Shown here piece by piece: positions 5,163 through 25,727 of a DNA stretch of 64,000 bases. Source of the DNA: Alcaligenes ammonioxydans (GTDB lineage Bacteria; Pseudomonadota; Gammaproteobacteria; Burkholderiales; Burkholderiaceae_B). The DNA lies in the NCBI RefSeq assembly GCF_019343455.1, contig NZ_CP049362.1:1054001-1118000 (forward strand). The letters run 5' to 3'. Every line of letters starts with the position of its first letter. The stretch's first letter is position 1. The position numbers were made by a program, and so were the translations under genes. The notes under the pieces were generated by a model, which had not been told where the DNA came from, searched no databases, and was given only the letters and a program-made list of their open reading frames with translations.

Positions 5163-7748
5163 TTACAGACCTACGGAGTCGGCAATTTCCTTGAACTCTT
5201 CGATCTGGTCGAAGTTCATGTAGCGATAGATGTCCTTGCTATTGGCTTGCAGCACACCCATATCGGCCAGATACTCTTCGCGGGTGGGGATGCGACCCAG
5301 ACGCGAGCAGATCGCCGCCAACTCAGCCGAACCCAGGAACACGTTGGTGTTCTTGCCCAGACGGTTGGGGAAGTTACGGGTGCTGGTGGACATGACGGTG
5401 GCGCCCTCACGAACCTGAGCCTGGTTACCCATGCACAGCGAGCAGCCTGGCATTTCCATACGCGCACCGGCTACACCCAGAACGCCGTAGTGGCCTTCTT
5501 CGGTCAGCTGTTGCTGGTCCATCTTGGTCGGAGGAGCGACCCACAGACGGGTTGGAATGTCGCGCTTGCCTTCCAGCAGCTTGGAGGCGGCACGGAAGTG
5601 GCCGATGTTGGTCATGCAGCTACCGATAAACACTTCGTCGATCACGGTGCCGGACACGTCGGACAGGGTTTTCACATCGTCAGGGTCGTTCGGGCAGGCC
5701 ACGATAGGCTCGTGGATTTCAGCCAGGTCGATATCGATGACGGCGGCGTATTCTGCGTCTGCATCGGGTTCGAGCAGTTCTGGATTGGCCAACCAGGCTT
5801 CCATGGCCTTGATGCGACGCGAGATGGTGCGCTCGTCTTCGTAGCCATTGGCAATCATCCACTTGAGCAGCGTGATGTTGCTGTTCAGGTATTCGATGAT
5901 GGGTTCCTTGTTCAGACGCACGGTACATGCGGCGGCAGAACGCTCAGCCGAAGCGTCGGACAGCTCGAAAGCCTGTTCGATCTTCAGGTTGGGCAGGCCT
6001 TCGATTTCCAGGATGCGGCCGGAGAAGATGTTCTTCTTGCCGGCTTTTTCCACGGTCAGCAAACCTTGCTTGATGGCGTACAGAGGAATGGCGTTAACCA
6101 GGTCACGCAGCGTGACGCCGGGCTGCATTTCGCCCTTGAAGCGCACCAGAACGGATTCTGGCATGTCCAGAGGCATCACACCGGTAGCAGCAGCAAAGGC
6201 CACCAAACCGGAACCGGCCGGGAAGCTGATGCCAATCGGGAAACGGGTGTGCGAGTCGCCACCGGTACCGACGGTATCGGGCAACAACATGCGGTTCAGC
6301 CAGGAGTGGATGATACCGTCGCCTGGGCGCAGGGAAACACCGCCGCGTGTGCTGATGAAAGCAGGCAGCTCGTGGTGAGTCTTGACGTCAACAGGTTTGG
6401 GGTAAGCGGCGGTGTGGCAGAAGGACTGCATCACCAGATCGGACGAGAAGCCCAGGCAAGCCAGGTCTTTGAGTTCGTCGCGCGTCATTGGGCCAGTGGT
6501 GTCCTGGCTACCAACGGTGGTCATGCGTGGTTCGCAGTACGTACCGGGACGCACGCCTTGGCCTTCGGGCAGACCGCAAGCACGGCCAACCATCTTCTGG
6601 GCCAGGGAGAAGCCTTTGCCGGAATCGGCAGGGCTTTGTGGCAGGCGGAACAGGGTGGTCGGAGGCAGGCCCAGTGCTTCGCGAGCACGGGTGGTCAGGC
6701 CACGGCCGATAATCAGTGGGATACGGCCGCCGGCGCGCACTTCGTCAAACAGCACGTCGGACTTGACCTGGAACTCAGCGATCAGCTCGCCGTTCTTGAA
6801 GGCCTTGCCTTCGTAGGGGCGCAGTTCGATAACGTCGCCCATTTCCATTTTGGACACGTCCAGTTCGATTGGCAACGCGCCGGCATCTTCCATGGTGTTG
6901 TAGAAGATGGGGGCAATTTTGCTGCCCAGGCACACGCCACCGAAACGCTTGTTGGGAACGAAGGGGATGTCTTGGCCGGTGAACCACAGCACGGAGTTGG
7001 TGGCCGACTTGCGCGAAGAACCGGTACCCACCACGTCACCCACGTAGGCAACCAGATGGCCTTTTTCTTTCAGGGATTCGATGAAGCTGACAGGACCTTT
7101 CTTGCCGGGCTCTTCGGGTTCGATACCGGGGCGCGGATTTTTCAGCATGGCCAGCGCGTGCAGCGGAATGTCCGGGCGGCTCCAGGCGTCGGGGGCGGGC
7201 GACAGATCGTCCGTGTTGGTCTCGCCAGTGACCTTGAAAACGGTAACGGTCAGGCTTTCGGGAACTTCAGGACGGCTGGTGAACCATTCGCCGTCAGCCC
7301 AGCTTTGCAGGACTTCCTTGGCAAATACATTGCCTTTCTCGGCTTTTTCCTGGACGTCATGGAACGAGTCGAACATCAACAGGGTGTTTTTCAGGCCGTT
7401 GGCGGCAATCTGGCCCAGCTCGGGGCTGTCCAGCAATTCGATCAGCGGGCTGATGTTGTAGCCACCCAGCATGGTTCCCAGCAGCTCTGTAGCGCGCTCG
7501 CGGCTGATCAAAGCACAGGTTTCTGTGCCCAGCGCGATGGCGGCCAGGTAGGAGGCCTTCACTTTGGTCGCATCGTCCACACCGGCGGGGACGCGGTGCG
7601 TCAGCAGGTCGACCAGAAATGCTTCCTCACCGGCAGGTGGGTTCTTGATGAGCTCGATCAGCTCGGCGGTCTGCTGAGCCGACAAAGGCAGCGGGGGAAT
7701 GCCCAGAGCAGCGCGCTCGGCAACATGTTCGCGGTAAGAGTCCAGCAT
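5163..7748 (-). CDS. acnB: Bifunctional aconitate hydratase 2 / 2-methylisocitrate dehydratase AcnB
   Basis: AcnB isomerises citrate to isocitrate in the TCA cycle and in many bacteria also hydrates 2-methyl-cis-aconitate. The product has 861 residues (E. coli 865). The N-terminal HEAT-like part starts [22 protein letters not shown], the swivel domain carries [12 protein letters not shown], and the [4Fe-4S] ligands are the Cys of [11 protein letters not shown] and the two of PGCSLCMGN. The start at 7748 was preferred over the upstream ATG at 7838 on family grounds and because the longer frame runs through the promoter. A sigma-70 promoter at 7810-7838 and a palindromic operator at 7841-7861 lie upstream. 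The nearby prpB and prpC genes lack a local prpD or acnD, so AcnB may serve the methylcitrate cycle too. Confidence 0.97.
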
Positions 7749-7809: not shown

Positions 7810-7838
7810 ATTGTAATTTGAAGCGCGCAGTGAAGCAA
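7810..7838 (-). promoter_or_regulatory. Sigma-70 promoter of acnB
   Basis: On the minus strand TTGCTT (7838-7833) and TACAAT (7815-7810) are separated by exactly 17 bp. The predicted start near 7803 gives a leader of about 55 nt. The operator begins 2 bp upstream of the -35 box. Confidence 0.75.
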
Positions 7839-7840
7839 TG

Positions 7841-7861
7841 GTCTTATATCTTATATAAGAC
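7841..7861. promoter_or_regulatory. 21-bp palindromic operator upstream of acnB
   Basis: Perfect 9-bp arms GTCTTATAT and ATATAAGAC flank a CTT centre; an inner 12-bp perfect palindrome TCTTATATAAGA is contained in it. All 21 bases recur at 16841-16861 beside mdh and a GntR-family gene. The centre lies near -48 relative to the predicted acnB start. The likely ligand is the GntR/HutC protein encoded at 16963-17742; that link is inference. Confidence 0.8.
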
Positions 7862-8787: not shown

Positions 8788-9951
8788 TTATGGGCGCTCA
8801 TCCAGGGGTACGAAGCGCTGATTCTCAGGGCCAATGTAGTTGGCGGTAGGACGGATGATCTTGTTGTCCACGCGCTGCTCGATGATGTGAGCGGCCCAGC
8901 CTGCGGTACGCGCAATCACAAACAAGGGCGTGAACATGGCGGTGGGCACGCCCATGGTGTGGTAAGACACGGCCGAGAACCAGTCCAGGTTGGGGAACAT
9001 TTTTTTCACTTCCCACATCACGCTTTCCAGACGCTCGGCAATTTCATACATGCGAGTGTTGCCATCGGCCTGGGCCAGCTCCTTGGCCACCGATTTGATA
9101 ACTTCATTGCGGGGGTCAGAAATGGTGTAGACGGGGTGGCCAAAGCCAATAATGACTTCCTTGTTCTCCACGCGCTTGCGGATGTCTTCTTCGGCCTGGT
9201 CGGCCGTCTCGTAGCGCTTCTGGATTTCAAAAGCCACTTCGTTGGCACCGCCGTGCTTGGGGCCGCGCAGGGCGCCAATGGCGCCGGAGATCGCGGAATA
9301 AAAGTCCGAGCCTGTACCGGCAATGACGCGGCTCGTGAAAGTGGAGGCGTTGAATTCGTGTTCGGCGTACAGGTTCAGCGACACGTGCATGGCTTTTTCC
9401 CACTCGGCCGAAGGCTTTTCGCCATGCAGCAGGTGCAGGAAGTGCGCGCCGATGCTGTCATCGTCGGTCTGCACGTCGATCATCTCGCCATTGTGGCTGT
9501 AGTGATACCAGTACAGCAGGGCAGAGCCCAGGCAGGCCAGCAGGCGGTCCGCGATGTCGCGGGCGTCGGGCAGGTTGTGGTCGTCCTTTTCAGGCAGCAC
9601 ACAACCCAGCACCGATACGGCCGTGCGCATCACGTCCATGGGGTGGCTGTGGGCGGGCAGGGTTTCCAGTGCGCTTTGCAGGGCCAGGGGCAGGCCGCGC
9701 AGACGCTTGAGTTTTTGCTTGTAGGCGCGCAATTCATTGCGGTTAGGCAGCTTGCCGTGAATCAGCAAGTAAGCCACTTCCTCAAATTCGCAAGCCTGGG
9801 CCAGGTCCAGGATGTCGTAGCCGCGGTAGTGCAGGTCATTGCCGCTGCGACCGACCGTGCACAAGGCGGTATTACCTGCGACAACGCCAGACAAGGCAAC
9901 AGATTTCTTGGGCTTGAAGCCAGTGCTAGGGGTGTTCTCGGTACTGCTCAT
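8788..9951 (-). CDS. prpC: 2-methylcitrate synthase PrpC
   Basis: PrpC condenses propionyl-CoA with oxaloacetate to 2-methylcitrate, the first committed step of the methylcitrate cycle. The 387-residue length fits the short methylcitrate/citrate synthase type, distinct from the 434-residue gltA product in this window. Catalytic regions are visible: [31 protein letters not shown] with the catalytic His, and [23 protein letters not shown] with the catalytic Asp region. CAGGAG precedes the ATG. It follows prpB by 105 nt on the same strand and is probably cotranscribed from the sigma-54 promoter at 11025-11041. Confidence 0.96.
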
Positions 9952-9975
9952 AAAGGTCTCCTGGTTGCTGGGCAG

Positions 9976-10021
9976 CCCGCGCGAGGCTGGCTGCCAAATG
10001 GGGTTTTGACCCGCGCGAGGC
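9976..10021. repeat. 12-bp direct repeat between prpB and prpC
   Basis: CCCGCGCGAGGC occurs at 9976-9987 and again at 10010-10021. Between and after the copies GCCAAA and TTTGGC form a further inverted repeat. The element may fold in the prpBC mRNA. Confidence 0.6.
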
Positions 10022-10056
10022 CCGGTTTGGCGGGGCTGGCGGGAGCCTGTGATGGC

Positions 10057-10956
10057 TCAGGACTTCTTGTTTTTCTGGAACAGCTTGTCGAGGCTTTGCT
10101 CGTAAGCATGGTAGCCGATACGATCGTACAGTTCCTCGCGAGTCTGCATCAAATCGATGACATTTTTTTGATGCCCGTCACGGCGGATCGCCTGATAGAC
10201 GGTTTCGGCTGCTTTGTTCATGGCGCGGAATGCGGACAGTGGATAGAGAACCATGGCTACATTGACCGAGGCCAGTTCCTGCACGGTAAACAGTGGGGTT
10301 TGTCCAAATTCTGTGATATTGGCCAACACGGGCACATTCAGGGTGTCGGTAAAACGCCGATAGGTGTCCAGATCGTAGCAGGCCTCGGCAAAAATGCCGT
10401 CAGCACCAGCCTCCACGCAGGCCTGGGCGCGCTCCAGGGCGGCATCCACGCCCTCCACCGCAATCGCGTCCGTGCGGGCCATGATGAAAAAATCCGGGTC
10501 GGTGCGAGCATCCACAGCGGCTTTCACGCGGTCAGCCATTTCCTCCGTGCTGACAATTTCCTTGCCGGGGCGGTGACCGCAACGCTTGGCACCTACCTGA
10601 TCCTCAATGTGGCAGGCAGCCGCGCCAAACTTGATCAGGCTTTTGATGGTGCGAGCGATGTTGAAGGCCGAGGCGCCAAAGCCGGTGTCAATGTCCACCA
10701 TCAGGGGCAGATCGCACACATCGGTAATACGACGAATGTCGGTCAGGACATCGTCCAGGGTATTGATACCCAGGTCAGGCAGACCCAGGGACCCGGCAGC
10801 CACACCGCCGCCCGACAGATAAATGGCACGGTAATTGGCTCGTTGTGCCAACAAGGCGTGATTGGCGTTGATGGCGCCAATGATTTGCAAAGGCTGCTCG
10901 TCGCGCAGGGCCTGGCGGAAACGGGCGCCTGCCGATGTCAGTGGGTTTTGGCTCAT
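10057..10956 (-). CDS. prpB: 2-methylisocitrate lyase PrpB
   Basis: PrpB cleaves 2-methylisocitrate to pyruvate and succinate. The 299-residue protein has the isocitrate lyase/PEP mutase fold with the catalytic Cys in [13 protein letters not shown], the metal-binding MVDIDTGFG and [14 protein letters not shown] lies 8 nt before the ATG. It is the first gene of prpB-prpC, divergent from the activator gene prpR, and is preceded by a good sigma-54 promoter. No prpD, acnD or prpF lies in the cluster, so the dehydration of 2-methylcitrate must use a gene elsewhere or AcnB-type activity. Confidence 0.97.
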
Positions 10957-11024
10957 TTGGGGCTCCAGATCACAAGATAAAAAAATGTCGTCAGCGTGAT
11001 GCTGCGATGGGTTGATTTCAATAA

Positions 11025-11041
11025 AGCAAATGCTGTGCCAG
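11025..11041 (-). promoter_or_regulatory. Sigma-54 (-24/-12) promoter of prpBC
   Basis: The minus strand reads CTGGCACAGCATTTGCT, which matches the RpoN consensus YTGGCACGRNNNTTGCW at every fixed position but one (A for G at position 8). GG and GC have the required spacing. It lies about 70 nt upstream of the prpB start. PrpR, encoded divergently, is a sigma-54 activator, so the assignment is strong. Confidence 0.88.
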
Positions 11042-11149
11042 GTTCAGGTATGGGGGCGAGGAAACGCCTGAAGCCAGACTAGGCGGGGATTTCTGCCATG
11101 GTTTGCACGCGTCAGTTCTTTTCGTGAATACTGCCTTTCACTGTTTTGT

Positions 11150-11177
11150 GTTTCAATGTTGAAACGTAATTTGAAAC
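11150..11177. promoter_or_regulatory. Likely PrpR upstream activating site
   Basis: A perfect inverted repeat GTTTCAA-TG-TTGAAAC spans 11150-11165 and a further half site TTGAAAC lies at 11171-11177. The element stands about 110-135 bp upstream of the -24 box of prpB and just before prpR, the usual place for an enhancer. It may also control prpR. A second small inverted repeat, CAATG-TCG-CATTG, follows. Confidence 0.7.
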
Positions 11178-11210
11178 AATGTCGCATTGTTGATGCCTGG
11201 ATGAAACCAC

Positions 11211-13124
11211 ATGCCTTATCCGTCTTCCCTTCCTGCTCGTCTGCGTCTGGTGGCGTTCGGTTTGCACGGACTGCGGTCTCTCTTGGAGGAGCTGGTGCCG
11301 CAGTTCCGCGCCCAGGCTGAAATTCTGATCGTGGACAAGGCTTATGGCGAGGCCGTGGAAACCGTGCAGGTTTTGCGACAAACAGGTGAAATCGACGTTC
11401 TGGTGTCCGCCGGTTCCAACGGCAGTTATTTGCGTGAGCATCTGGACCTGCCCGTGGTGCTGGTACATCCCGGTGGTTTCGACATTATGGGCAGTCTGGC
11501 CTCGGCACAGGCCGAGCGCAAAGCCGTGGTGACCTATGGCGAAATACCGCTTGAGTTGATGGAGTTTGTGCAGCGTTTTGATCTGCCCGTGGAGCTACGC
11601 AGCTATCGCAGCGAGGCCGATGCACGTAGCTGTGTTCAGGATTTGAAAGAGCTGGGTGTGGAGTGGGTGCTGGCACCCGGGCTGGTCGTGGATCTGGCGC
11701 GTGAGAACCAGATGGAAGGCGTGCTCCTGTATTCACAAGGAGCAGTGCGACAGGCTTTGGAGTCCGCTATCGAACTAGCCCGTGTTGCTCGCGCTGAAGC
11801 GGCTCGTCGGGATCGCTTGAATACGATTTTGGCGCAGTTGCGTGACGGTGTGGTGTCAGTCGATAGGGATGAGCGTATTGAAACCGTGAACCCGGCCATG
11901 GAAGCCTGGTTGGGTCAGCCTGCTCAGGCCATGATCGGGCGCCGCCTGGGGGCCTTGTATCCCGAGCTGGATCTGGCCGGCACACTGCGCAGTGTGGAAG
12001 TAGAGCTTGATACGGTGCAGCAGGTGGGAGGGCGCACGGCGATTGTGACCCGTATGCCGATTCTCGAGCAGGGGCGCCTGAGTGGGGCTGTGTTGATTTG
12101 TCAGGACCCGGCAGCCATTCAGCGGCTGGATCGCAGTTTGCGCTCACGTAGCCAGCAGACCGCGTCGCGGCATGCCCGTTATCAACTGGCCGACTTGATA
12201 GGGCAGAGTTCGGCCATGCGCACATTACGTGCTCAGGCCCAGGCTTGTGCACAAAGCACGGCCACGACCTTGATCATTGGCGAAAGCGGGACGGGCAAGG
12301 AGCTGCTGGCTCAGGGCATTCACAGCGCCAGCGCCCGGCGTGGTCAACCGTTTGTGGCAGTCAACTGTGCCGCTTTTCCCGACAGCCTGCTGGAGAGCGA
12401 GCTGTTCGGTTATGTGGAAGGGGCATTTACGGGCTCGAGCCGGGGCGGCAAAGTGGGCCTGGTGGAAGCGGCTCATACCGGTACCTTGTTTCTGGATGAG
12501 ATCGGGGAAATGCCTTTGCCTTTGCAAACTCGCTTGTTGCGTGTGTTGCAGGAGAAGGAAGTCTTGCGTATCGGGGCGATTGAGCCCACGCCGGTCGATG
12601 TGCGTGTGATTGCCGCGACGCATCGCGATTTGGCGGCGCAGGTGAAAGAAGGAGTGTTCCGCCAGGATTTGTTTTATCGCCTGAATATTCTGGTGCTGCG
12701 CTTGCCGCCTTTGCGGCTGCGCACCGACGATCTGCCGGAGCTGGTGGAGCATCTTTTGGGGAAAGTAGCCCAGCGTTTAGGCGGCGCGCTTACGTTGCAG
12801 CCAACGTGGCTGACGCAATTGTTGAAGCGGGGCCCTGATTACGCCTGGCCCGGTAATATCCGTGAGCTGGAAAACTTGATTGAGCGGCTGATGGTGCTTG
12901 GCTCTGTCCAGGGGGAGCAGGCGGTACAGCTGGAGGAAATCGCTCCGGAATTGCAGGCGACCGCCACAGAGAAGGCGGTGCCCGCGCTGCGTGAGCGGCA
13001 AGAGCGCAATGAACAGGAGCATGTGGCCCAGGTGCTGCAAGCATGCGGCGGTAATCGTGCTCTGGCTGCCCAGCAACTGGGGATCAGTCGCAGCACCTTG
13101 TGGCGTAAATTGCGCAAGAAGTGA
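11211..13124 (+). CDS. prpR: Propionate catabolism sigma-54 activator PrpR
   Basis: The 637-residue protein has the PrpR N-terminal sensor domain (about residues 10-190), a PAS-like segment (about 200-310), a sigma-54 AAA+ domain and a Fis-type helix-turn-helix at the C-terminus (GNRALAAQQLGISRSTLWRKL). Walker A is GESGTGKE at about 357, the sigma-54-contacting loop is GAFTGS (Ser in place of the last Ala, as in other PrpR proteins), and Walker B is TLFLDEIGEM. Members of this family respond to 2-methylcitrate and open RNA polymerase-sigma-54 complexes. It is divergent from prpB, with its binding site and target promoter in between. No strong Shine-Dalgarno precedes the ATG. Confidence 0.95.
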   Translation: MPYPSSLPARLRLVAFGLHGLRSLLEELVPQFRAQAEILIVDKAYGEAVETVQVLRQTGEIDVLVSAGSNGSYLREHLDLPVVLVHPGGFDIMGSLASAQAERKAVVTYGEIPLELMEFVQRFDLPVELRSYRSEADARSCVQDLKELGVEWVLAPGLVVDLARENQMEGVLLYSQGAVRQALESAIELARVARAEAARRDRLNTILAQLRDGVVSVDRDERIETVNPAMEAWLGQPAQAMIGRRLGALYPELDLAGTLRSVEVELDTVQQVGGRTAIVTRMPILEQGRLSGAVLICQDPAAIQRLDRSLRSRSQQTASRHARYQLADLIGQSSAMRTLRAQAQACAQSTATTLIIGESGTGKELLAQGIHSASARRGQPFVAVNCAAFPDSLLESELFGYVEGAFTGSSRGGKVGLVEAAHTGTLFLDEIGEMPLPLQTRLLRVLQEKEVLRIGAIEPTPVDVRVIAATHRDLAAQVKEGVFRQDLFYRLNILVLRLPPLRLRTDDLPELVEHLLGKVAQRLGGALTLQPTWLTQLLKRGPDYAWPGNIRELENLIERLMVLGSVQGEQAVQLEEIAPELQATATEKAVPALRERQERNEQEHVAQVLQACGGNRALAAQQLGISRSTLWRKLRKK

Positions 13125-15693: not shown

Positions 15694-16683
15694 TTAACCC
15701 AGCAGGTCTTTCACACCGTCACGTTCTTCCAGCAGTTCGTTCAAGGTGTGGTCCATGCGCTCACGCGAGAAGGCGTCAATTTCCAGGCCTTCCACACGTT
15801 TGTACTCGCCGTTTTCGGTGGTGACGGGCACGCCGTAAACGATGCCTTCAGGAATGCCGTAGGAGCCGTCCGAAGGAACGCCCATGGTGACCCATTTGCC
15901 GTTCGAGCCCAATACCCAGTCACGCACGTGGTCGATGGCGGCATTGGCAGCCGAAGCCGCCGAGGACAGACCACGGGCTTCGATGATGGCGGCGCCACGT
16001 TTGCCCACGGTGGGGATGAAGGTGTCGCGGTTCCAGGCCTGATCGTTGATGATGGCGTCGATCTTCTCACCGTTCACCGTCGCGAAACGGGTGTCAGGGT
16101 ACATCGTGGGCGAGTGGTTGCCCCAGACGATCAGGTTCTCGATGTCAGCAACGGGCTTGCCGGACTTGGCGGCCAGTTGCGACAGGGCGCGGTTGTGGTC
16201 CAGGCGCAGCATGGCGGTGAAGTTCTTGGCTGGCAGATCAGGAGCCGATTTCATGGCGATGTAGGCGTTGGTGTTGGCAGGGTTGCCCACCACCAGAACC
16301 TTGACGTCACGGCTGGCAACTTTGTTCAGGGCGCGACCTTGTGCGGTGAAGATCTGGGCATTGAAGGCCAGCAGGTCTTTACGCTCCATGCCGGGGCCAC
16401 GTGGACGGGCGCCGACCAGCAGGGCGATATCAACATCTTTGAATGCGCTTTCAGGGTCGCTGTGGGCGGACATGCCTTGCAGCAGGGGGAACGCGCAGTC
16501 GTCCAGTTCCATCATGACGCCCTTCAGGGCCTTTTGGGCTTTCTCGTCGGGTAGCTCCAGCAACTGCAGGATCACAGGCTGGTCTTTGCCCAGCATTTCG
16601 CCAGAAGCGATGCGAAACAGCAGGGCGTAGCCAATCTGGCCAGCAGCGCCGGTAACGGCGACGCGCATTGCGGGTTTGGACAT
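15694..16683 (-). CDS. mdh: NAD-dependent malate dehydrogenase
   Basis: Mdh oxidises malate to oxaloacetate in the TCA cycle. The 329-residue protein is of the cytosolic-type bacterial family common in Burkholderiales, with the Rossmann signature [21 protein letters not shown], the substrate-binding [14 protein letters not shown] and the catalytic His in [12 protein letters not shown]. The start at 16683 ([12 protein letters not shown]) was preferred to the ATG at 16782, which extends into the promoter. A promoter lies at 16810-16838 and the shared palindrome at 16841-16861. It is divergent from a GntR/HutC regulator gene that leads into the sdh operon. Confidence 0.97.
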
Positions 16684-16809: not shown

Positions 16810-16838
16810 AGACTAGACCAAAACGATAAGGACGTCAA
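16810..16838 (-). promoter_or_regulatory. Sigma-70 promoter of mdh
   Basis: On the minus strand TTGACG (16838-16833) and TAGTCT (16815-16810) are 17 bp apart. The operator begins 2 bp upstream of the -35 box, the same geometry as at acnB. The leader is about 120 nt. Confidence 0.7.
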
Positions 16839-16840
16839 AC

Positions 16841-16861
16841 GTCTTATATCTTATATAAGAC
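16841..16861. promoter_or_regulatory. 21-bp palindromic operator between mdh and GntR gene
   Basis: All 21 bases equal those at 7841-7861 (arms GTCTTATAT and ATATAAGAC around CTT), while the flanking bases differ, so this is a conserved site and not a duplicated segment. It lies about 100 bp upstream of the GntR gene start and 2 bp from the mdh -35 box, so it can serve both directions. Confidence 0.8.
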
Positions 16862-16962
16862 ATAAGAGCGTTAGACATTCGAGGCCGGTCATGCGAAAAT
16901 TAGCGCACTGTCTATTTTATGAACAAATGCGTGTTCCCCGCTGTATTTATCGCGCATTTTTT

Positions 16963-17742
16963 ATGAGCCCCATGTCTGAGAACGTGCCGCCGCTACGCAC
17001 CCAGGAAATCGAAAAATCCGCTCCTAGCGCGGCCTATAGCCCTCTGTATCAACAGATTAAGGCTTTGCTGCTGCAGGGGCTGGATCGTGGCGAGTGGAAG
17101 CCTGGCGAGGCCATTCCCAGTGAGCTGGAACTGGCCGCACGTTTTCAGGTCAGCCAGGGGACGGTGCGCAAGGCTATCGATGAGCTGGCCGCCGACAATC
17201 TTCTGATCCGTCGTCAAGGGAAAGGCACGTTTGTAGCCACCCACCACGAGGCGCGGGTGCGTTTTCGGTTTTTGCGTCTGGCCCCCGATGACGGCAAGCC
17301 GGTCGCCTCACAAAGTCGAATCATCGATGTTCGTCGCATGAAGGCTCCCACGGATGTCGCGGTGCTGCTCGATTTGCGCACGTCCGACATGGTGGTGAAC
17401 TTGCGCCGGGTCCTCTCCTTTGATCAGGTTCCCACCATTTATGACGATATCTGGTTGCCCGGCTCGGTGTTCAAGGGCCTGACCCTGGACGCCGTCGAGC
17501 AGAACAAGGGCCCGATGTATGCCTGGTTCGAGAGCAAGTTTGGCGTGAGCATGGTGCGTGCCGATGAAAAGATTGGCGCGGTCAGCGCCACCGAAGAGGC
17601 TGCCTCGGTTCTGCAGGTGGCCGCCGGCTCCCCGCTTTTGTATGTAGAGCGTGTGTCCTACACCTATGGTGACCGACCGATGGAGTTGCGCCGGGGTTTA
17701 TACCTGACTGAGCGCTTCCATTACCGAAACACACTCAGCTAG
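16963..17742 (+). CDS. GntR/HutC-family regulator, probable TCA-cycle regulator
   Basis: The 259-residue protein has an N-terminal winged helix (SPLYQQIKALLLQGLDRGEW, then PSELELAARFQVSQGTVRKAIDEL and RRQGKGTFVA) and a C-terminal UTRA ligand-binding domain (IYDDIWLPGSVFKGL, SPLLYVERVSYTYGDRPMELRRGLY), the HutC subfamily. The start is uncertain: 16963 and 16972 give the usual length but have poor ribosome sites, while 16891 has GAGG 6 nt upstream and would add 24 unusual residues. It lies between divergent mdh and the sdh operon and next to the palindrome shared with acnB, so a role in controlling TCA genes is likely. Its effector is unknown. Confidence 0.88.
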   Translation: MSPMSENVPPLRTQEIEKSAPSAAYSPLYQQIKALLLQGLDRGEWKPGEAIPSELELAARFQVSQGTVRKAIDELAADNLLIRRQGKGTFVATHHEARVRFRFLRLAPDDGKPVASQSRIIDVRRMKAPTDVAVLLDLRTSDMVVNLRRVLSFDQVPTIYDDIWLPGSVFKGLTLDAVEQNKGPMYAWFESKFGVSMVRADEKIGAVSATEEAASVLQVAAGSPLLYVERVSYTYGDRPMELRRGLYLTERFHYRNTLS

Positions 17743-17844: not shown

Positions 17845-18258
17845 ATGTCTGATACCGCACCCAAGCAGCGTCCGCAGTATCGCAATATCAGCGTGCCGCA
17901 GATATTGAGCTACCGCTTGCCCCTGGCCGCAAAATCGTCGATTTTGCATCGTGTCAGCGGCGCATTGCTGTTTCTTTGCCTGCCGCTCGTTCTATTGCCA
18001 CTGTTCTCTTTGAGCGTGAGCTCTCCAGAGTCCTTCGAGACCATGCGCAGCTATGTCGACAACCCTGTCTGTAAGCTGATTCTTCTGGTGCTGATCTGGG
18101 GCTATCTGCACCACTTCTGTGCCGGCATCCGCTATCTGGCACTGGACCTGCACCTGGGTAATGACAAAGAGTCCGCCAAGAAATCGGCCGGCATGGTGTT
18201 TGGGGTCAGCCTGGCGCTGACTGTTGTGTTTGGTTTGAAACTGTTTGGGGTGTGGTAA
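17845..18258 (+). CDS. sdhC: Succinate dehydrogenase cytochrome b556 subunit SdhC
   Basis: The 137-residue membrane anchor holds three hydrophobic helices. The segment SVPQILSYRLPLAAKSSILHRVSGALLF carries the quinone-site SxxHRxSG motif, and HHFCAGIRYLALDLHLG carries the haem-ligand His. It is the first gene of sdhCDAB-sdhE-gltA, with GAGG 8 nt before the ATG. The gap to the GntR gene is 102 nt; only a weak -35-like TTGATA at 17760-17765 is visible. Its stop codon overlaps the sdhD start (TAATG). Confidence 0.95.
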   Translation: MSDTAPKQRPQYRNISVPQILSYRLPLAAKSSILHRVSGALLFLCLPLVLLPLFSLSVSSPESFETMRSYVDNPVCKLILLVLIWGYLHHFCAGIRYLALDLHLGNDKESAKKSAGMVFGVSLALTVVFGLKLFGVW

Positions 18259-18641
18259 TGGCTAATCGTGAGCGCATTGGCGCAAACCGCCTGGTAGTGG
18301 GTGCCCACTACGGTACCTTGGACTTTCTGGCACAGCGGGTGACTGCAGTCATCATGGCCATCTACACCTTGGTCATCATTGGCGGCATCCTGTTTAGCAG
18401 CGAACTGAATTTCGAGACCTGGCGCGGCCTGTTCTCGTTCACGGTCGGCTCCCTGCCTCTGGGTCAGTTGCTGGCAACCCTGTTTTTCCTGTCGTTGTCC
18501 TGGCACGCCTGGATCGGTGTGCGTGACATCTGGATGGACTACGTCAAGCCCGCTGGCCTGCGCTTGTTCCTGCAAGTGTTGACCTTGCTGTGGCTGGTGG
18601 CCAGTGTCGTCTTTTTTGCAAAAATTATCTGGAGTCTCTAA
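18258..18641 (+). CDS. sdhD: Succinate dehydrogenase membrane anchor SdhD
   Basis: The 127-residue protein has three predicted membrane helices and the motif LSLSWHAWIGVRDIWMDYVKP, in which the His and Asp belong to the haem and quinone sites of complex II. The ATG overlaps the sdhC stop by one base; a GTG at 18252 in the same frame is a weaker choice. With SdhC it anchors the SdhAB catalytic head to the inner membrane. Confidence 0.95.
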   Translation: MANRERIGANRLVVGAHYGTLDFLAQRVTAVIMAIYTLVIIGGILFSSELNFETWRGLFSFTVGSLPLGQLLATLFFLSLSWHAWIGVRDIWMDYVKPAGLRLFLQVLTLLWLVASVVFFAKIIWSL

Positions 18642-18644
18642 ACC

Positions 18645-20423
18645 GTGGCTTCCATCACAAAATCTTTGCCCCGCCGTCAGTTTGACGTAGTGGTGGTCGG
18701 TGCCGGTGGCGCCGGTATGCGTTGTTCCCTGCAATTGGCTCAGGCCGGCTTGTCCGTGGCTGTGCTCAGCAAGGTGTTCCCAACCCGCTCCCACACGGTG
18801 GCCGCCCAAGGTGGCGTCAGTGCCTCCCTGGGTAACATGAGCGAGGACCATTGGTACTGGCACATGTACGACACCGTCAAGGGTTCGGACTGGCTGGGTG
18901 ACCAGGACGCCATCGAATTCATGTGCCGTGAAGCGCCGCACGCAGTGTACGAGCTCGAGCACTTTGGCATGCCTTTTGACCGCAACCAGGACGGTACGAT
19001 TTACCAGCGTCCATTTGGTGGTCACACCGCCAACTTTGGTGAAAAACCTGTCCAGCGCGCCTGTGCGGCAGCTGACCGTACCGGTCACGCCATGTTGCAC
19101 ACGCTGTACCAGCGTAACGTTGCTGCCCGCACCCAGTTCTTCGTGGAGTGGATGGCACTGGATCTGCTGCGTAACGAAGCGGGCGACGTCCTGGGCGTGA
19201 CTGCCCTGGAAATGGAAACCGGCGAAATCTACGTTCTGGAAGGCAAGCGCGTGGTGCTGGCTACCGGCGGTGCTGGCCGTATCTGGGCTGCGTCCACCAA
19301 CGCCTTCATCAACACGGGCGACGGTCTGGGTATGGCCGCTCGTGCAGGTCTGCCTTTGCAGGACATGGAGTTCTGGCAATTCCACCCCACTGGCGTGGCC
19401 GGTGCCGGCGTGCTGATTACCGAGGGCGTGCGCGGTGAAGGCGGTATCCTGTTGAACAAGGACGGCGAGCGCTTCATGGAGCGTTACGCTCCTACCCTGA
19501 AAGATCTGGCCCCTCGTGACTTCGTGTCCCGTTCCATGGACCAGGAAATCAAGGAAGGTCGCGGTTGTGGCGACGGCAGCTACGTGGTGCTGAAGCTGGA
19601 TCACCTGGGTGCCGACGTCATCAAGAAACGTCTGCCCTCGATTCGCGAGATCGCCATCAAGTTCGGTAACGTCGACCCGATCAAGGACCCGATCCCCGTG
19701 GTTCCCACCATCCACTACCAGATGGGCGGTATCCCCACGAACTACTACGGTCAGGTGGTGACGCAAACCCCGACCGGCGAGAGCAAGATCGTCAACGGTC
19801 TGTACGCGATCGGTGAGTGTGCGGCCACGTCCGTACACGGTGCCAACCGTCTGGGTACAAACTCGCTGCTGGACCTGATCGTGTTCGGTCGCGCTGCCGG
19901 CAACCACATTGTGGACTCGCACCCCGAGAAAGATCACGCTCACCAGGAAATCAACGAGTCCTCCATCGAGTTCTCGCTGGACCGCGTCAATCGTCTGGAG
20001 TCCCGTACCTCGGGCGAAAAGGCTCAGGATGTGGGCAACAAGATTCGCGTGGCCATGCAGGCTCACTGTGGCGTGTTCCGTACCCTGGATCTGCTGCACA
20101 AGGGCGTCGACCAGATCGAATCCCTGGTTCCCGAAGTCAAGGATATTTACTTCAAAGACAAGTCCAAAGTCTTCAATACCGCCCGTATTGAGGCGCTGGA
20201 AGTGGCCAACATGATCGAAGTGGCTCGTGCCACGACCAAGTCGGCCGCCAATCGTACGGAAAGTCGCGGCGCTCATGCCCTGAACGACCACCCGGAGCGT
20301 GACGACGAGAACTGGCTGCGTCACACCCTGTGGTTCTCGGAAGGCAGCCGTCTGGAGTACAAGCCTGTCCAGATGAAACCGCTGACAGCCGAAACGATTC
20401 CGCCCAAGGCCCGGACTTTCTAA
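18645..20423 (+). CDS. sdhA: Succinate dehydrogenase flavoprotein subunit SdhA
   Basis: The 592-residue subunit oxidises succinate to fumarate with covalent FAD. It shows the dinucleotide fold VVVVGAGGAGMRCSLQLAQ near residue 11, the FAD-attachment His in RSHTVAAQGG, the active-site region GAGVLITEGVRGEGG, and HGANRLGTNSLLDLIVFGRAAG. The start is a GTG at 18645, supported by GGAG about 11 nt upstream; no ATG fits the conserved N-terminus. It lies 3 nt after sdhD. Confidence 0.98.
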   Translation: MASITKSLPRRQFDVVVVGAGGAGMRCSLQLAQAGLSVAVLSKVFPTRSHTVAAQGGVSASLGNMSEDHWYWHMYDTVKGSDWLGDQDAIEFMCREAPHAVYELEHFGMPFDRNQDGTIYQRPFGGHTANFGEKPVQRACAAADRTGHAMLHTLYQRNVAARTQFFVEWMALDLLRNEAGDVLGVTALEMETGEIYVLEGKRVVLATGGAGRIWAASTNAFINTGDGLGMAARAGLPLQDMEFWQFHPTGVAGAGVLITEGVRGEGGILLNKDGERFMERYAPTLKDLAPRDFVSRSMDQEIKEGRGCGDGSYVVLKLDHLGADVIKKRLPSIREIAIKFGNVDPIKDPIPVVPTIHYQMGGIPTNYYGQVVTQTPTGESKIVNGLYAIGECAATSVHGANRLGTNSLLDLIVFGRAAGNHIVDSHPEKDHAHQEINESSIEFSLDRVNRLESRTSGEKAQDVGNKIRVAMQAHCGVFRTLDLLHKGVDQIESLVPEVKDIYFKDKSKVFNTARIEALEVANMIEVARATTKSAANRTESRGAHALNDHPERDDENWLRHTLWFSEGSRLEYKPVQMKPLTAETIPPKARTF

Positions 20424-20436
20424 GCAGGATACTGAC

Positions 20437-21153
20437 ATGAGCCAAAAACGTAAGGTCAAATTTGAAATCTACCGCTACGATCCTGACAAGGACGAGCGTC
20501 CCTACATGCAAAAGATCGAAGTCGAGTTGGAACCTACCGACAAGATGCTGCTCGATGCGATCTTGCGCATTAAGAACGATATGGACGACAGCCTGGCGTT
20601 GCGTCGTTCCTGCCGCGAAGGTGTGTGCGGTTCCGATGCCATGAACATCAATGGCAAGAACGGTCTGGCCTGCACGACCAATATGCGCGACCTGAAAGAA
20701 CCTGTGGTCCTGCGCCCATTGCCAGGTCTGCCGGTTATCCGTGACCTGATCGTGGACATGACCCACTTCTTCGATCAGTACCATTCGGTCAAGCCCTTCC
20801 TGATCAACGATGCGCCTCCTCCTGAGAAAGAGCGTCTGCAAACGCCTGAAGCTCGTGAGGAACTCGATGGTCTGTACGAGTGCATTCTGTGTGCCTGCTG
20901 CTCGACCTCTTGCCCCTCGTTCTGGTGGAACCCCGACAAGTTCGTCGGTCCTGCCGGTTTGTTGCAAGCCTATCGTTTCATTGCCGACTCGCGTGACGAG
21001 GCTACTGGCGAGCGTCTGGATAATCTGGAAGATCCTTACCGCTTGTTCCGTTGCCACACGATCATGAACTGTACGGATGTCTGTCCAAAAGGACTGAATC
21101 CCTCGCATGCCATCGGCAAGATCAAAGAAATGCTGGTGCGTCGCAGTATCTAA
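20437..21153 (+). CDS. sdhB: Succinate dehydrogenase iron-sulfur subunit SdhB
   Basis: The 238-residue subunit carries electrons from FAD to quinone. The [2Fe-2S] ligands are Cys59, Cys64, Asp67 and Cys79 (CREGVCGSDAMNINGKNGLAC, with the Asp variant usual in proteobacteria). The [4Fe-4S] and [3Fe-4S] clusters are bound by CILCACCSTSCPS and CHTIMNCTDVCPKGLNP. It follows sdhA by 13 nt in the operon. Confidence 0.97.
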   Translation: MSQKRKVKFEIYRYDPDKDERPYMQKIEVELEPTDKMLLDAILRIKNDMDDSLALRRSCREGVCGSDAMNINGKNGLACTTNMRDLKEPVVLRPLPGLPVIRDLIVDMTHFFDQYHSVKPFLINDAPPPEKERLQTPEAREELDGLYECILCACCSTSCPSFWWNPDKFVGPAGLLQAYRFIADSRDEATGERLDNLEDPYRLFRCHTIMNCTDVCPKGLNPSHAIGKIKEMLVRRSI

Positions 21154-21171
21154 AAAGGTGGGTATGTACCG

Positions 21172-21432
21172 ATGAGAACATTGACGGAATTGGAGCGTGC
21201 GCGTCTGCGTTGGCGTGCGCGCCGGGGCTTGCTTGAAAACGACTTGATGATCACCCGTTTTCTGGATCAATACGAAAACGAGCTGACTGATCAGGACGTC
21301 TCGGCCCTGACCCGTTTGTTCGAAATGGACGATACAGTTTTGCTGGATGTCCTTCTGGCTCGCTCCGAGCCGGAAGGGCAATACGCCACCCCGGACATCC
21401 AGCGACTAGTAGACATTATGCGAAAGCTATAA
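21172..21432 (+). CDS. sdhE: FAD assembly factor SdhE
   Basis: The 86-residue protein matches the SdhE/YgfY family, which helps attach FAD to SdhA. The essential RGxxE motif is RRGLLEND at about residues 17-24, followed by the helical bundle YENELTDQDVSALTRLFEMDD. It lies between sdhB and gltA, the usual betaproteobacterial position. Confidence 0.94.
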   Translation: MRTLTELERARLRWRARRGLLENDLMITRFLDQYENELTDQDVSALTRLFEMDDTVLLDVLLARSEPEGQYATPDIQRLVDIMRKL

Positions 21433-21450
21433 CCATTGAGGAAAAAAGTG

Positions 21451-22755
21451 ATGGAATTGTCAGAAAAAAAAGCCACGCTATCCTTCTCCGACGGTAGCCC
21501 TTCGGTTGAGTTCCCTGTACACAAGGGCACCGTAGGTCCGGACGTGATCGATATCCGTAAGCTCTACGGTCAGACAGGTATGTTTACCTATGACCCCGGC
21601 TTTATGGCGACGGCGGCGTGCGAATCGGGCATCACCTACATCGACGGCGACAAGGGCCAGTTGATGTACCGTGGTTACCCTATCGACCAGTTGGCACAAA
21701 AGTGCGATTTCATGGATGTGTGCTACCTGATCCTGAACGGCGAGCTGCCTAACGCCGAGCAGAAACAGGAGTTCGACTCCCTGGTGACGAACCACACCAT
21801 GGTTCAGGAACAGATGCAGCACTTCCTGCGCGGCTTCCGTCCGGACGCTCACCCCATGGCAATACTGACTGGCCTGGTCGGTGCCTTGTCGGCGTTCTAC
21901 CATGATTCCACGGACATCACGAATCCTCATCACCGCCATGTGTCGGCTATTCGCTTGATCGCCAAGCTGCCAACGCTGGTTGCGATGGCGTACAAGTATT
22001 CTTTGGGACAGCCATTCATCTATCCCAAGAATGATTTGTCCTACACCGGCAACTTCTTGCGCATGATGTTCGCCACCCCTTGCGAAGACTACAAGGTCAA
22101 CGAAGTGGTTGAGCGCGCTTTGGATCGTATCTTCATCCTGCATGCAGATCACGAGCAGAACGCCTCGACTTCCACCGTTCGTCTGTGCGGCTCGTCGGGT
22201 ACCAATCCTTTCGCTGCGATCGCTGCGGGCGTTGCCTGCTTGTGGGGTCCTGCTCACGGTGGTGCAAACGAAGCGTGCCTGAACATGCTGGAAGAGTTGC
22301 AAGCCAACGGCGGCATCGACAAGGTTGGCGAGTTCATGGAGAAGGTCAAGGACAAGAACTCGGGCGTGCGCCTGATGGGTTTTGGTCACCGTGTCTACAA
22401 GAACTACGATCCACGCGCCAAGCTGATGCAGGAAACCTGCAAGGAAGTTCTGGAAGCCCTGGGCCTGGAGAACGATCCTCTGTTCAAACTGGCCATGGAA
22501 CTGGAGCGCATCGCTCTGGAAGATCCTTACTTTGTCGAGCGCAAACTGTACCCCAACGTGGACTTCTACTCGGGTATCGTTCAGCGTGCTATTGGCATTC
22601 CAACCTCCCTGTTTACCGCTATCTTCGCCCTGGCTCGTACCGTAGGCTGGATTGCGCAGTGGAACGAAATGCTGTCCGATCCTGATTACAAGATCGGCCG
22701 TCCACGTCAGTTGTATGTGGGCCCAACCCAGCGCGATGTACCTGCTCAGCGTTAA
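21451..22755 (+). CDS. gltA: Type II citrate synthase GltA
   Basis: GltA condenses acetyl-CoA with oxaloacetate. At 434 residues it is the large hexameric proteobacterial form. Catalytic parts are [45 protein letters not shown] and [16 protein letters not shown]. The ATG at 21451 has GAGG 9 nt upstream; the in-frame TTG at 21436 contains that site and is unlikely to be the start. It closes the sdhCDAB-sdhE-gltA operon and is followed by a strong terminator. Confidence 0.97.
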
Positions 22756-22940: not shown

Positions 22941-23720
22941 TCACGGTGGAGAGAGAGGGTTACTAAAGCGAAAGATGCGTTGCTCACGTGCTTTGTTTTC
23001 TTCTGACAGCCGGACTTTTGCCTGGACGTGATCAAGGTGATGGCCAATCAGCTCGCGTGCCCGGTCTGCGTCCCCGTTCAGAATCGCCTTCATCACTCCC
23101 TCATGCTGTTCAGTCAGAATCTCGACTTCACGGGCATTGTCGAACTCGAACATGGCCCGTCGGTTCTCTTTCACTGTCGAGAACACCAGCTGGAATAAAC
23201 CGTTCATCAGTTGCAGCAGTACGACATTATGCGAGGCCATGGCAATGGCCAGATGAAATTGCGCGTCGGCGCGCGCCGAGAGATCTGCATCCTGATTCTG
23301 CTGGTGACGGACCATGACCTGAAAACAGTGCTCAATGCGCTTTTTGTCCGTCTCTGTCGCCCGGTGCGCTGCATGCCAGGCCGTGCTGGCCTCCAGGGCG
23401 CGGCGCGCCTCCAGGACATCGTAGCGGTACAGCGGGTCTTCATGGATCAACTCTTCCAGGGGCGCAATGCTTTGGGCCGGCCAGTTCATCAGATCGCTAT
23501 CCTGAACGTAGGTACCGCCGCCGCGGCGGGTCACCAGCAGGCCTTCAGAGCACAGGGAGCGCAAGGCTTCCCGTATGGGCACGCGCGAGACCTCCAGTTG
23601 CTCGGCCAATTGACGCTCTGAGGGGATGCGGTCCCCCGGCTGCAAATGTTTCTCCTGAATCAGCTGACGAATTTTCTCTGCAACCTGGTCTGACAGGCGC
23701 GAGCGGGATTGCTTGGTCAT
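22941..23720 (-). CDS. lldR: GntR/FCD-family regulator, LldR-like
   Basis: The 259-residue protein has a winged helix (LSDQVAEKIRQLIQEKHLQ, RIPSERQLAEQLEVSRVPIREALRSL) and a C-terminal FCD domain with the metal/ligand residues of FHLAIAMASHN and HHLDHV. It is divergent from an L-lactate permease gene, and GGTAATACC palindromes lie in the gap, matching the LldR/LldR-like repressor pattern. The ATG at 23720 was chosen because the longer frame (GTG 23768) runs through one of those sites. The lactate link rests on the neighbour and the operator, so the symbol is provisional. Confidence 0.82.
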   Translation of the reverse strand: MTKQSRSRLSDQVAEKIRQLIQEKHLQPGDRIPSERQLAEQLEVSRVPIREALRSLCSEGLLVTRRGGGTYVQDSDLMNWPAQSIAPLEELIHEDPLYRYDVLEARRALEASTAWHAAHRATETDKKRIEHCFQVMVRHQQNQDADLSARADAQFHLAIAMASHNVVLLQLMNGLFQLVFSTVKENRRAMFEFDNAREVEILTEQHEGVMKAILNGDADRARELIGHHLDHVQAKVRLSEENKAREQRIFRFSNPLSPP

Positions 23721-23741
23721 GGGAGAGGCTTTCTCGGATAT

Positions 23742-23752
23742 TGGTATTACCA
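23742..23752. promoter_or_regulatory. LldR-type operator near lldR
   Basis: TGGTA-T-TACCA is an 11-bp palindrome 22 nt before the lldR ATG. It is the same motif as at 23827-23836, so the regulator probably controls its own gene. Confidence 0.65.
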
Positions 23753-23812
23753 CTTTATTTAATTTCACAGGATTTTGGTGAGGGTAGGGGCCAAACTAGT
23801 CAGGGTTTGTGC

Positions 23813-23836
23813 TGGTAATACAAAGGTGGTAATACC
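23813..23836. promoter_or_regulatory. Tandem LldR-type operator near lctP
   Basis: TGGTAATAC at 23813-23821 is repeated 14 bp downstream as TGGTAATACC at 23827-23836; the second copy contains the palindrome GGTA-A-TACC. A -10-like TATGAT follows at 23839-23844, so a protein bound here could block the lctP promoter. Confidence 0.65.
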
Positions 23837-23963
23837 GCTATGATGCTCAAAAATACAAAACGGGAAGCGGCCTTTCTGCCCGAAGATCTGTTTCATGCTG
23901 GTCTTTTGTCCTTTAACAGAAGTGCTTCCTGCGTACATGTAGTCACACAAAGGAGAATCCGGG

Positions 23964-25727
23964 ATGAGTCTTTTATACACCTTGTTGGCCCTGACGCCAT
24001 TGCTGGTCGTCTTTCTATTGATGGTGGTGATGGGACGATCAGCCAAGTTGTCGATGGGGGCCGCTTATCTGGTGACGGTTCTACTTGCCTTGTTTGTCTG
24101 GGGTAGCCAGACCGCGGTGATTGCAGCCGCTACCGTCAACGGGATTGTGACCGCCTTGACCTTGCTGTTCATTGTATTTGGAGCTGTTCTGCTTTTGAAT
24201 ACGCTCAAGGTGGGCGGTGCCTTGAAAGCGATTCGGCAGGGCTTTATGGATGTGTCGCCCGACCGTCGCATTCAGGTCATTATTGTGGCCTGGCTGTTTG
24301 GCTCCCTGATCGAAGGCTCCTCTGGGTTTGGCACGCCATCCGCGGTAGGGGCGCCCTTACTGCTGGCGCTGGGCTTTCCGGCCATGGCTGCCGTCATGTC
24401 CGTACTCATCATTCAGTCCACGCCGGTGTCCTTTGGCGCAGTCGGCACGCCTATGCTGGTCGGTGTGCGTTCGGGCATTGATAACAAAGCTGACGTGGCC
24501 GCTGCTATTGTGCCCATGCAGCCGATGGAGTATTTGCAGCAGATTGTCGAGAATGTGGCTCTGATCCATGCTCTGACCGGTTTTGTGATTCCCTTGTTGC
24601 TCTGCGGTCTGCTGACCCGTTTCTTTGGTGAGCGCCGCTCCTTTGCCGAAGGGCTGGGTGCATGGAAGTTTGCTCTGTTTGCGGGTCTGGCCTTCACGGT
24701 TCCTTATTATTTGATTGCCGTCATTCTGGGGCCCGAGTTTCCGTCGATGTTGGGCGCGATGGTGGGGCTGGTGCTGAGCGTGACAGCAGCGCGGAAAGGA
24801 TGGTTTGCGCCACGTAAGACATTTGATTTTCCCGATCGCAGTCAATGGCCTTCTCATTGGCTGGGCACGGTTGCCATGGACAATACGGAGGCGCCGCAAC
24901 GATTTTCCGTTTTGCGGGCGTTCTCGCCCTATGTGCTGGTGGTCTTGCTGCTGATCGTTACCCGCACTTTTCCTGCCGTTAAGGCCTGGCTTACCGGTCC
25001 GTCCGCGACCATCAGAATTGAAGGCATTTTCGGCACGGGTATTTCCACATCGGCGCAATTGTTGTTCTCACCGGGGGCAATCCTGATTGTGGTGTCCTTG
25101 GCATGTATCGCCATCTTCCGCATGAGTGGCCAGCAGTACGTGGTGGGGGTCAAAGACTCGCTGCGCACCATGGGTAGTGCAGCGCCTGCCTTGTTGCTGG
25201 CCGTGCCTATGGTTCAGGTGTTCATCAACTCGGCTGCGGCAGATGGTTCTATCGCCAGCATGCCTCTGGTGCTGGCGCAAGGAGCGGCCACCGCGGTAGG
25301 GCATGCATGGCCCAGTGTTTCGCCCTGGGTGGGCAGCTTGGGCGCATTTATTGCAGGCTCCAATACCGTGAGCAACATGATGTTCTCCTACTTCCAGTTC
25401 TCTACGGCACAGCAGATTGGTTTGAATATCGACCAGTCCGCTGTTGTGGTTGCATTGCAGGCAGTCGGTGGGGCCGCCGGGAACATGATTTGTGTTCATA
25501 ACGTGGTCGCCGCCGGGGCGGTAGTCGGCATGCTGGGCCGTGAGGGGGAAATTGTCCGCAAGACCCTGATCCCCATGGTGTATTACGTCATTCAGGCAGG
25601 GCTGATTGGCCAGGCCTTGATTACCGGGGCGATGGGTTGGTGGATTGCCGCTGCCATTTTCCTGGCACTGACCATTGGTGGCTTGAGTTTGTCTCGTGGA
25701 CGGCAGATGACTCCTGCTATGGCTTGA
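23964..25727 (+). CDS. lctP: L-lactate permease (LctP family)
   Basis: The 587-residue protein has 12 or more hydrophobic helices and is of normal length for the lactate permease family (TC 2.A.14), proton symporters for lactate and glycolate. Conserved stretches are LIEGSSGFGTPSAVGAPLL, STPVSFGAVGTPM and GSNTVSNMMFS near the C-terminal half. AAGGAG precedes the ATG by 9 nt. It is divergent from the LldR-like regulator. No lactate dehydrogenase gene lies in the window. Confidence 0.93.
   Translation: MSLLYTLLALTPLLVVFLLMVVMGRSAKLSMGAAYLVTVLLALFVWGSQTAVIAAATVNGIVTALTLLFIVFGAVLLLNTLKVGGALKAIRQGFMDVSPDRRIQVIIVAWLFGSLIEGSSGFGTPSAVGAPLLLALGFPAMAAVMSVLIIQSTPVSFGAVGTPMLVGVRSGIDNKADVAAAIVPMQPMEYLQQIVENVALIHALTGFVIPLLLCGLLTRFFGERRSFAEGLGAWKFALFAGLAFTVPYYLIAVILGPEFPSMLGAMVGLVLSVTAARKGWFAPRKTFDFPDRSQWPSHWLGTVAMDNTEAPQRFSVLRAFSPYVLVVLLLIVTRTFPAVKAWLTGPSATIRIEGIFGTGISTSAQLLFSPGAILIVVSLACIAIFRMSGQQYVVGVKDSLRTMGSAAPALLLAVPMVQVFINSAAADGSIASMPLVLAQGAATAVGHAWPSVSPWVGSLGAFIAGSNTVSNMMFSYFQFSTAQQIGLNIDQSAVVVALQAVGGAAGNMICVHNVVAAGAVVGMLGREGEIVRKTLIPMVYYVIQAGLIGQALITGAMGWWIAAAIFLALTIGGLSLSRGRQMTPAMA

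Follow-up and report, generated by a model that had tools for sequence, protein, structure and literature searches.

Predicted operators of the GntR/HutC regulator SdhR upstream of acnB, mdh, and other TCA-cycle genes in Alcaligenes and related Burkholderiales

Two identical palindromes in the Alcaligenes ammonioxydans genome, one before acnB and one between mdh and a GntR/HutC gene, are predicted from their sequence and surroundings to be operators of SdhR, a known but little-studied regulator that would be the product of this neighboring gene, at 16963-17742 of the window (the whole 64-kb stretch of DNA analyzed here, taken from a genome that forms a single contig of 3,774,827 bases). The original prediction had postulated a dedicated TCA-cycle regulon tied to the GntR/HutC gene, which is supported by the counts of the core motif, the positions of its targets, and its co-occurrence with sdhR; the regulon is tighter and wider than that prediction could know, and the sign of regulation is probably opposite to the activation it had suggested. 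We assign a probability of about 0.8 to the SdhR-operator model as a whole, comprising array binding, repression, and release by a metabolite.

Neither the regulator nor its motif is new. SdhR, a member of the HutC subfamily of the GntR family, was given the consensus TCTTATGTCTTATATAAGACATAAGA by Suvorova, Korostelev and Gelfand (2015, PMC4494728), whose main text names it once, with the motif only and citing a 2012 J Bacteriol paper, and calls that motif a "palindrome with additional symmetry" and an exception to the HutC consensus. The targets, distribution, promoter spacing, and 7-bp steps described below come from the present analysis and go beyond the main text of PMC4494728; the target list of the 2012 source paper may overlap with ours. 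Among the papers searched, PMC4494728 was the one in which the letters of the core were found. No paper with a title on this SdhR was among the matches listed for the name; in one set of these matches, PMC4494728 was the only paper to contain the word, which also occurs once in the accessible text of an E. coli paper (PMC7064253) from another set. PMC5343134, which surveyed the regulons of proteobacteria in 2016, does not contain SdhR in its main text. Among the literature matches listed, most of them judged by the listing alone, we found no experimental study of SdhR.

Results

The 21-mer GTCTTATATCTTATATAAGAC is identical at 7841-7861 (acnB) and 16841-16861 (mdh and the GntR gene), exactly where it had been placed, and, as read from the sequence, both copies end 2 bp upstream of a -35/-10 pair that lies on the minus strand with 17-bp spacing (Table 1). 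In 100 dinucleotide-preserving shuffles of the window, no match to the 21-mer with up to three mismatches was found. At the same tolerance, the genome-wide scan proposed along with the original prediction added two further matches, one shifted by 7 bp at mdh and one upstream of aceA, and the control, which in our motif scans is the pattern read backwards, also gave two. The recurrent unit is a 12-bp core, TCTTATATAAGA, which lies off the center of the 21-mer at both sites. We rejected the 21-bp dyad as the operator unit because the outer half-sites are often degenerate in the distant order-level loci while the core stays, which makes the core the main element. The mdh site, better described as a 26-bp element of four half-sites than as the 21-mer, agrees with TCTTATGTCTTATATAAGACATAAGA at 25 of 26 positions; the acnB site has 5 mismatches of 26, mostly in the outer half-site. 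Upstream of acnB in three Castellaniella loci and one other (L046, L047, L053, and L039), the 21-mer keeps its place with its center inverted (CTT to AAG), so that the core has moved by 7 bp.

Table 1. Predicted regulatory elements and associated genes in the 64-kb window.
Feature	Positions	Strand	Description
acnB, aconitase B	5163..7748	-	TIGR00117, 1524.6 bits
acnB promoter	7810..7838	-	-35 TTGCTT 7833-7838, 17-bp spacer, -10 TACAAT 7810-7815
Predicted SdhR operator of acnB	7841..7861		Three half-sites, core 7849-7860; also upstream of acnB in relatives
mdh, malate dehydrogenase	15694..16683	-	NF003916, 576 bits
mdh promoter	16810..16838	-	-35 TTGACG 16833-16838, 17-bp spacer, -10 TAGTCT 16810-16815
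Predicted SdhR operator between mdh and sdhR	16842..16867		Four half-sites, core 16849-16860; 25/26 to published consensus
Predicted sdhR promoter	16872..16900	+	-35 TAGACA 16872-16877, 17-bp spacer, -10 GAAAAT 16895-16900
sdhR, GntR/HutC regulator	16963..17742	+	GntR HTH and UTRA domains; start 16963 or 16972
sdhCDAB and gltA, downstream of sdhR on the same strand	17845..22755	+	ORFs; SdhA and citrate synthase by NCBIfam; sdhC, sdhD, and sdhB by eye

The GntR protein has the architecture of the HutC subfamily (PF00392, E 4.8e-21; PF07702, E 2.1e-33) and is 98% identical to SdhR of Alcaligenes faecalis AU14. Its gene adjoins the sdh genes, as the name sdhR suggests, and has the operator motif upstream of itself; sdhR-sdhCDAB-gltA would form one operon. 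We used NCBIfam to check the identities of AcnB, Mdh, SdhA, GltA, and the prp proteins. The region between acnB and mdh (window 8788-13124) holds the methylcitrate-cycle genes prpC and prpB together with prpR, of the sigma-54 type, and the core with up to two mismatches is absent from it. A second GntR-type gene, divergent from a gene for a large lactate-permease-like membrane protein (by eye), occupies 22941-25727 of the window.

The operator departs from the consensus of its subfamily. According to the main text of PMC4494728, this consensus is NyGTMTAKACNy, and regulators with an Arg at position 28 of the helix-turn-helix (HTH) show a strong preference for an operator G/C pair; the canonical GT-N4-AC is not found in the SdhR core, TCTTATATAAGA, which has TT/AA there. 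With the gapless Pfam alignment of protein residues 25-88 to profile positions 1-64, HTH position 28 would correspond to SdhR residue 52, if the numbering of the paper starts at the Pfam domain. In a set of 110 SdhR sequences, which includes that of our own genome and in which the same species may occur twice, no Arg is found at residue 52, which is Leu in 41, Ile in 30, Phe in 13, Met in 8, and another residue in 18, and the stretch S61-Q-G-T-V-R-K67 is invariant. The absence of Arg from residue 52 fits an operator that has TT where the family has GT.

The 3.77-Mb genome holds exactly four exact cores: one precedes acnB, one lies in the space shared by mdh and sdhR, one precedes the isocitrate lyase gene aceA, and one precedes icd; the control pattern at zero mismatches has no copy in this genome. 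All 10 Alcaligenes genomes searched likewise carry exactly four exact cores. Across 41 family genomes, 133 copies were found vs. 3 for the control, with 39 genomes positive and zero to six copies per genome. Among the 91 annotated cores (of 161 found), 87 lie upstream of genes of the TCA or glyoxylate cycle: acnB (24), mdh/sdhR (24), aceA (16), icd (16), acnA (4), monomeric isocitrate dehydrogenase (idh, 2), and glcB (1), with 4 elsewhere.

Some copies stand further from this pattern. The glcB core (L096) is 390 nt upstream of its gene, and a one-mismatch core in our own genome (L010) lies ~370 bp upstream of glcB, encoding malate synthase G, which is unusually far; two more one-mismatch copies there (L011 and L012) have no adjoining TCA gene by eye. 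The four exact cores away from TCA genes are found near the isochorismate synthase gene dhbC (L101), in a 0.8-Mb genome (L111), near a gene for polyphosphate kinase 2 (PPK2; L141), and ~450 nt from the dephospho-CoA kinase gene coaE (L143), and may be chance occurrences or local targets.

The motif co-occurs with the regulator gene. Among 80 named SdhR loci, which are the best 80 of 556 relatives and so lean to close ones, every one has a site within 420 nt upstream of sdhR, with an exact core in 70 and one mismatch in 10. We also surveyed 120 genomes of the order, 59 of which have an SdhR-like match at E 1e-45 or better. Of these 59, 44 carry the core, vs. 20 of the 61 others (p 4.7e-6); with the match set at 195 bits or more, the counts are 42 of 52 vs. 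22 of 68 (Fisher p 1.4e-7, kinship ignored), leaving 10 of the 52 genomes without an exact core. In the 30 order-level SdhR loci that match best among those 59 genomes, a sample leaning to close relatives and including our own genome, an exact core lies within 190 nt upstream in 26, and the remaining four have one mismatch (two loci) or two (two loci). Even SdhR homologues of no more than 47% identity can have the exact core immediately before them.

The geometry between site and promoter had been predicted to be fixed, which is true of the end of the half-site array at mdh and acnB but not of the dyad core. Among 77 distinct mdh sequences, the distance from the last half-site to the -35 box is 3 bp in 41, 4 bp in 27, 0-1 bp in 4, and 5 bp in 3, and 2 have no TTGAC; among 39 distinct acnB sequences, 35 have a distance of 3 bp and one of 4 bp, the promoter there being a TTG.../TA(C/A)AAT pair (36 of 39), and no promoter was found in 3. 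Identical 50-nt sequences were merged for these counts, which are not independent since near relatives remain, and the two mdh and three acnB sequences without a recognized promoter were counted as misses. Left out of the mdh count were nine loci in which no core was picked up on the mdh strand and which have a one-mismatch core each (L030, L054, L059, L060, L065, L067, L068, L078, and L080). The acnB count omits L052, where no site appears upstream of acnB even if 8 mismatches of 26 are allowed. Since a generic consensus scan required a match to TTGACA, the promoters it gave for a number of acnB, aceA, and icd loci were doubtful or missing; the mdh and acnB promoters were taken from gene-specific scans instead. 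The core itself lies 3 bp before the acnB -35 box in 8 sequences, 10-11 bp before it in 25, and 17 bp before it in 3, corresponding to 0, 1, or 2 half-sites in between, and 7, 8, 10-12, 17, or 18 bp before that of mdh. On the sdhR side the arrangement is mirrored: in 20 of 24 loci, our own genome included, the core is followed at 9-11 bp by the start of a promoter-like pair. In the order-level loci, the gap from the last half-site to the -35 box varies more.

At other targets, the dyad does not keep to one position upstream of the -35 box. A TAAACT/TACACT block resembling the mdh -10 boxes is found at the core in all 16 icd loci, sharing its first T with the core in 7 and preceding it by 2 bp in 7, by 5 bp in 1, and by 7 bp in 1; we found no clear -35 box at these 16 loci, and the -10 assignment rests on this block. 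In one of them (L167), the core ends 48 nt before the icd start codon. At acnA, a TTGAC ends 12 nt before the core in three of four loci (L161 has none), so that the core would cover the -10 box. Of the two cores at monomeric idh genes, that of L113 follows a TATAAT by 17 nt, with 33 nt left between its end and the start codon, and that of L158 is 236 nt away. In two acnB genes (L114 and L153), a -10-like box lies 14 nt after the core, which places the core on the -35 position.

Discussion

From the motif, its position before genes, its co-occurrence with the regulator gene, and the promoter-like layout, we infer binding, oligomer, sign, effector, and operon as follows. An SdhR dimer would bind the 12-bp core, and further subunits would probably occupy the flanking 7-bp half-sites (ATAAGAC), with 3-4 bp left between the end of the array and the -35 box. 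The protein would most likely act as a repressor. Bound just upstream of the -35 region, it would block this region at acnB, mdh, and sdhR, whereas its sites at icd, acnA, and monomeric idh would have it cover the start site, the -10 box, or the leader. Binding of a TCA-cycle metabolite (a di- or tricarboxylate) to the UTRA domain would release SdhR, with a joint rise in the expression of acnB, icd, mdh, sdhCDAB-gltA, aceA, and probably glcB; that the effector is a TCA acid is our guess from the targets. Several counts speak against the model: 10 of the 52 genomes with a match of 195 bits or more have no exact core, 22 of the 68 others do have one, and 4 of 91 cores are not near TCA genes. The icd loci without a clear -35 box and the acnA locus without TTGAC weigh against it as well.

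Could the palindromes have some other origin? Identical copies 9 kb apart with different flanks are what a mobile or structural repeat without regulatory role (a REP-like element or terminator) would also give; yet such a repeat would hardly be limited to zero to six copies per genome, with 87 of 91 annotated copies upstream of the genes of one pathway, or have its core kept across genera while the flanks differ. We rejected the repeat element as contradicted by this distribution of targets and consider it next to impossible. It is also very improbable that another regulator binds the operators and the neighboring GntR protein is a bystander. The presence of at least one core in 20 of 61 genomes lacking an SdhR match at E 1e-45 or better would agree with such a regulator, but the motif is assigned to SdhR in the main text of PMC4494728, the exact core adjoins even the 47%-identical homologues, and the lack of Arg at HTH residue 52 is in line with the unusual operator.

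The more serious question concerns the sign. The original prediction suggested a regulator that touches RNA polymerase, perhaps an activator. In such a model, SdhR would activate mdh, acnB, and sdhR, with sigma region 4 or the alpha C-terminal domains contacted from the -35-proximal half-site, or act in a dual manner by also repressing icd and acnA. A gap of 3-4 bp in 68 of 77 mdh sequences and of 3 bp in 35 of 39 acnB sequences is tighter than a repressor needs, and the near-constant end of the array relative to the -35 box at mdh, acnB, and sdhR weighs against our repressor model, since an activator could require it too. Against activation, 7 of the 77 mdh sequences have a gap of 0, 1, or 5 bp, the order-level loci are more variable, and the mdh -35 box is near consensus (TTGAC). 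Activator-dependent promoters usually lack a near-consensus -35 box. Furthermore, the core lies at the likely start site (icd), beyond it (idh of L113), or on the -35 position (acnB of L114 and L153). The activator idea is not supported, since at icd, acnA, a monomeric idh, and two acnB genes the core overlaps or follows the promoter, as would suit a repressor. We rejected it as first choice and regard it, with or without a dual role, as unlikely. As far as promoter layout can tell, SdhR sites more probably turn their target genes down than up.

A tentative idea, which we hold to be doubtful, is that 0, 1, or 2 extra 7-bp half-sites span the distance from the core to a point that is always 3 bp before the -35 box. 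Sigma region 4 would then be met by the last subunit of the array rather than by the core dimer, and evolution would shift the core in 7-bp steps with this contact kept. Additional half-sites near GntR sites are widespread, with a function still to be studied, according to the main text of PMC4494728. If the idea is true, such a head-to-tail array would give a function to these unexplained half-sites across the GntR family, and the 7-bp register at SdhR sites offers a direct handle on their purpose.

Among known systems, the HutC-subfamily repressors YvoA and DasR (2wv0, 4u0v, 4zs8, and 9i0v) share the GntR HTH and UTRA domains with SdhR, which they match over nearly the full length (E 1e-18 to 1e-20), but their subfamily consensus has GT/AC where the SdhR core has TT/AA. 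Repeated half-sites are shared with NanR and other GntR regulators that act on direct repeats; at SdhR sites, unlike there, a dyad core is joined by 0, 1, or 2 additional half-sites in a 7-bp register that runs up to the -35 box. A 162-residue chain deposited as a putative GntR-family transcriptional regulator (PDB 3cnv), which we take to be from Bordetella, matches the effector part of SdhR over 160 residues (E 5e-59) and is, by this similarity, probably the effector domain of an SdhR orthologue. A literature search with the code 3cnv and GntR found no paper. The regulator, its operator motif, and the solved effector domain of a close relative are already in hand.

In E. coli, control of the TCA and glyoxylate cycles is exerted by ArcA, Cra, and others. 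In many Burkholderiales, much of both cycles appears to be under the control of a single regulon that is small and clean. A further element is seen at aceA, where a conserved block, TTTGC..TGCAGCA, lies just downstream of the core and overlaps the promoter in L008 and 15 other loci. In some genomes, this second block is close to TTTGC-N-GCAAA, and we presume that it may be the site of a RamB/ScfR-type regulator.
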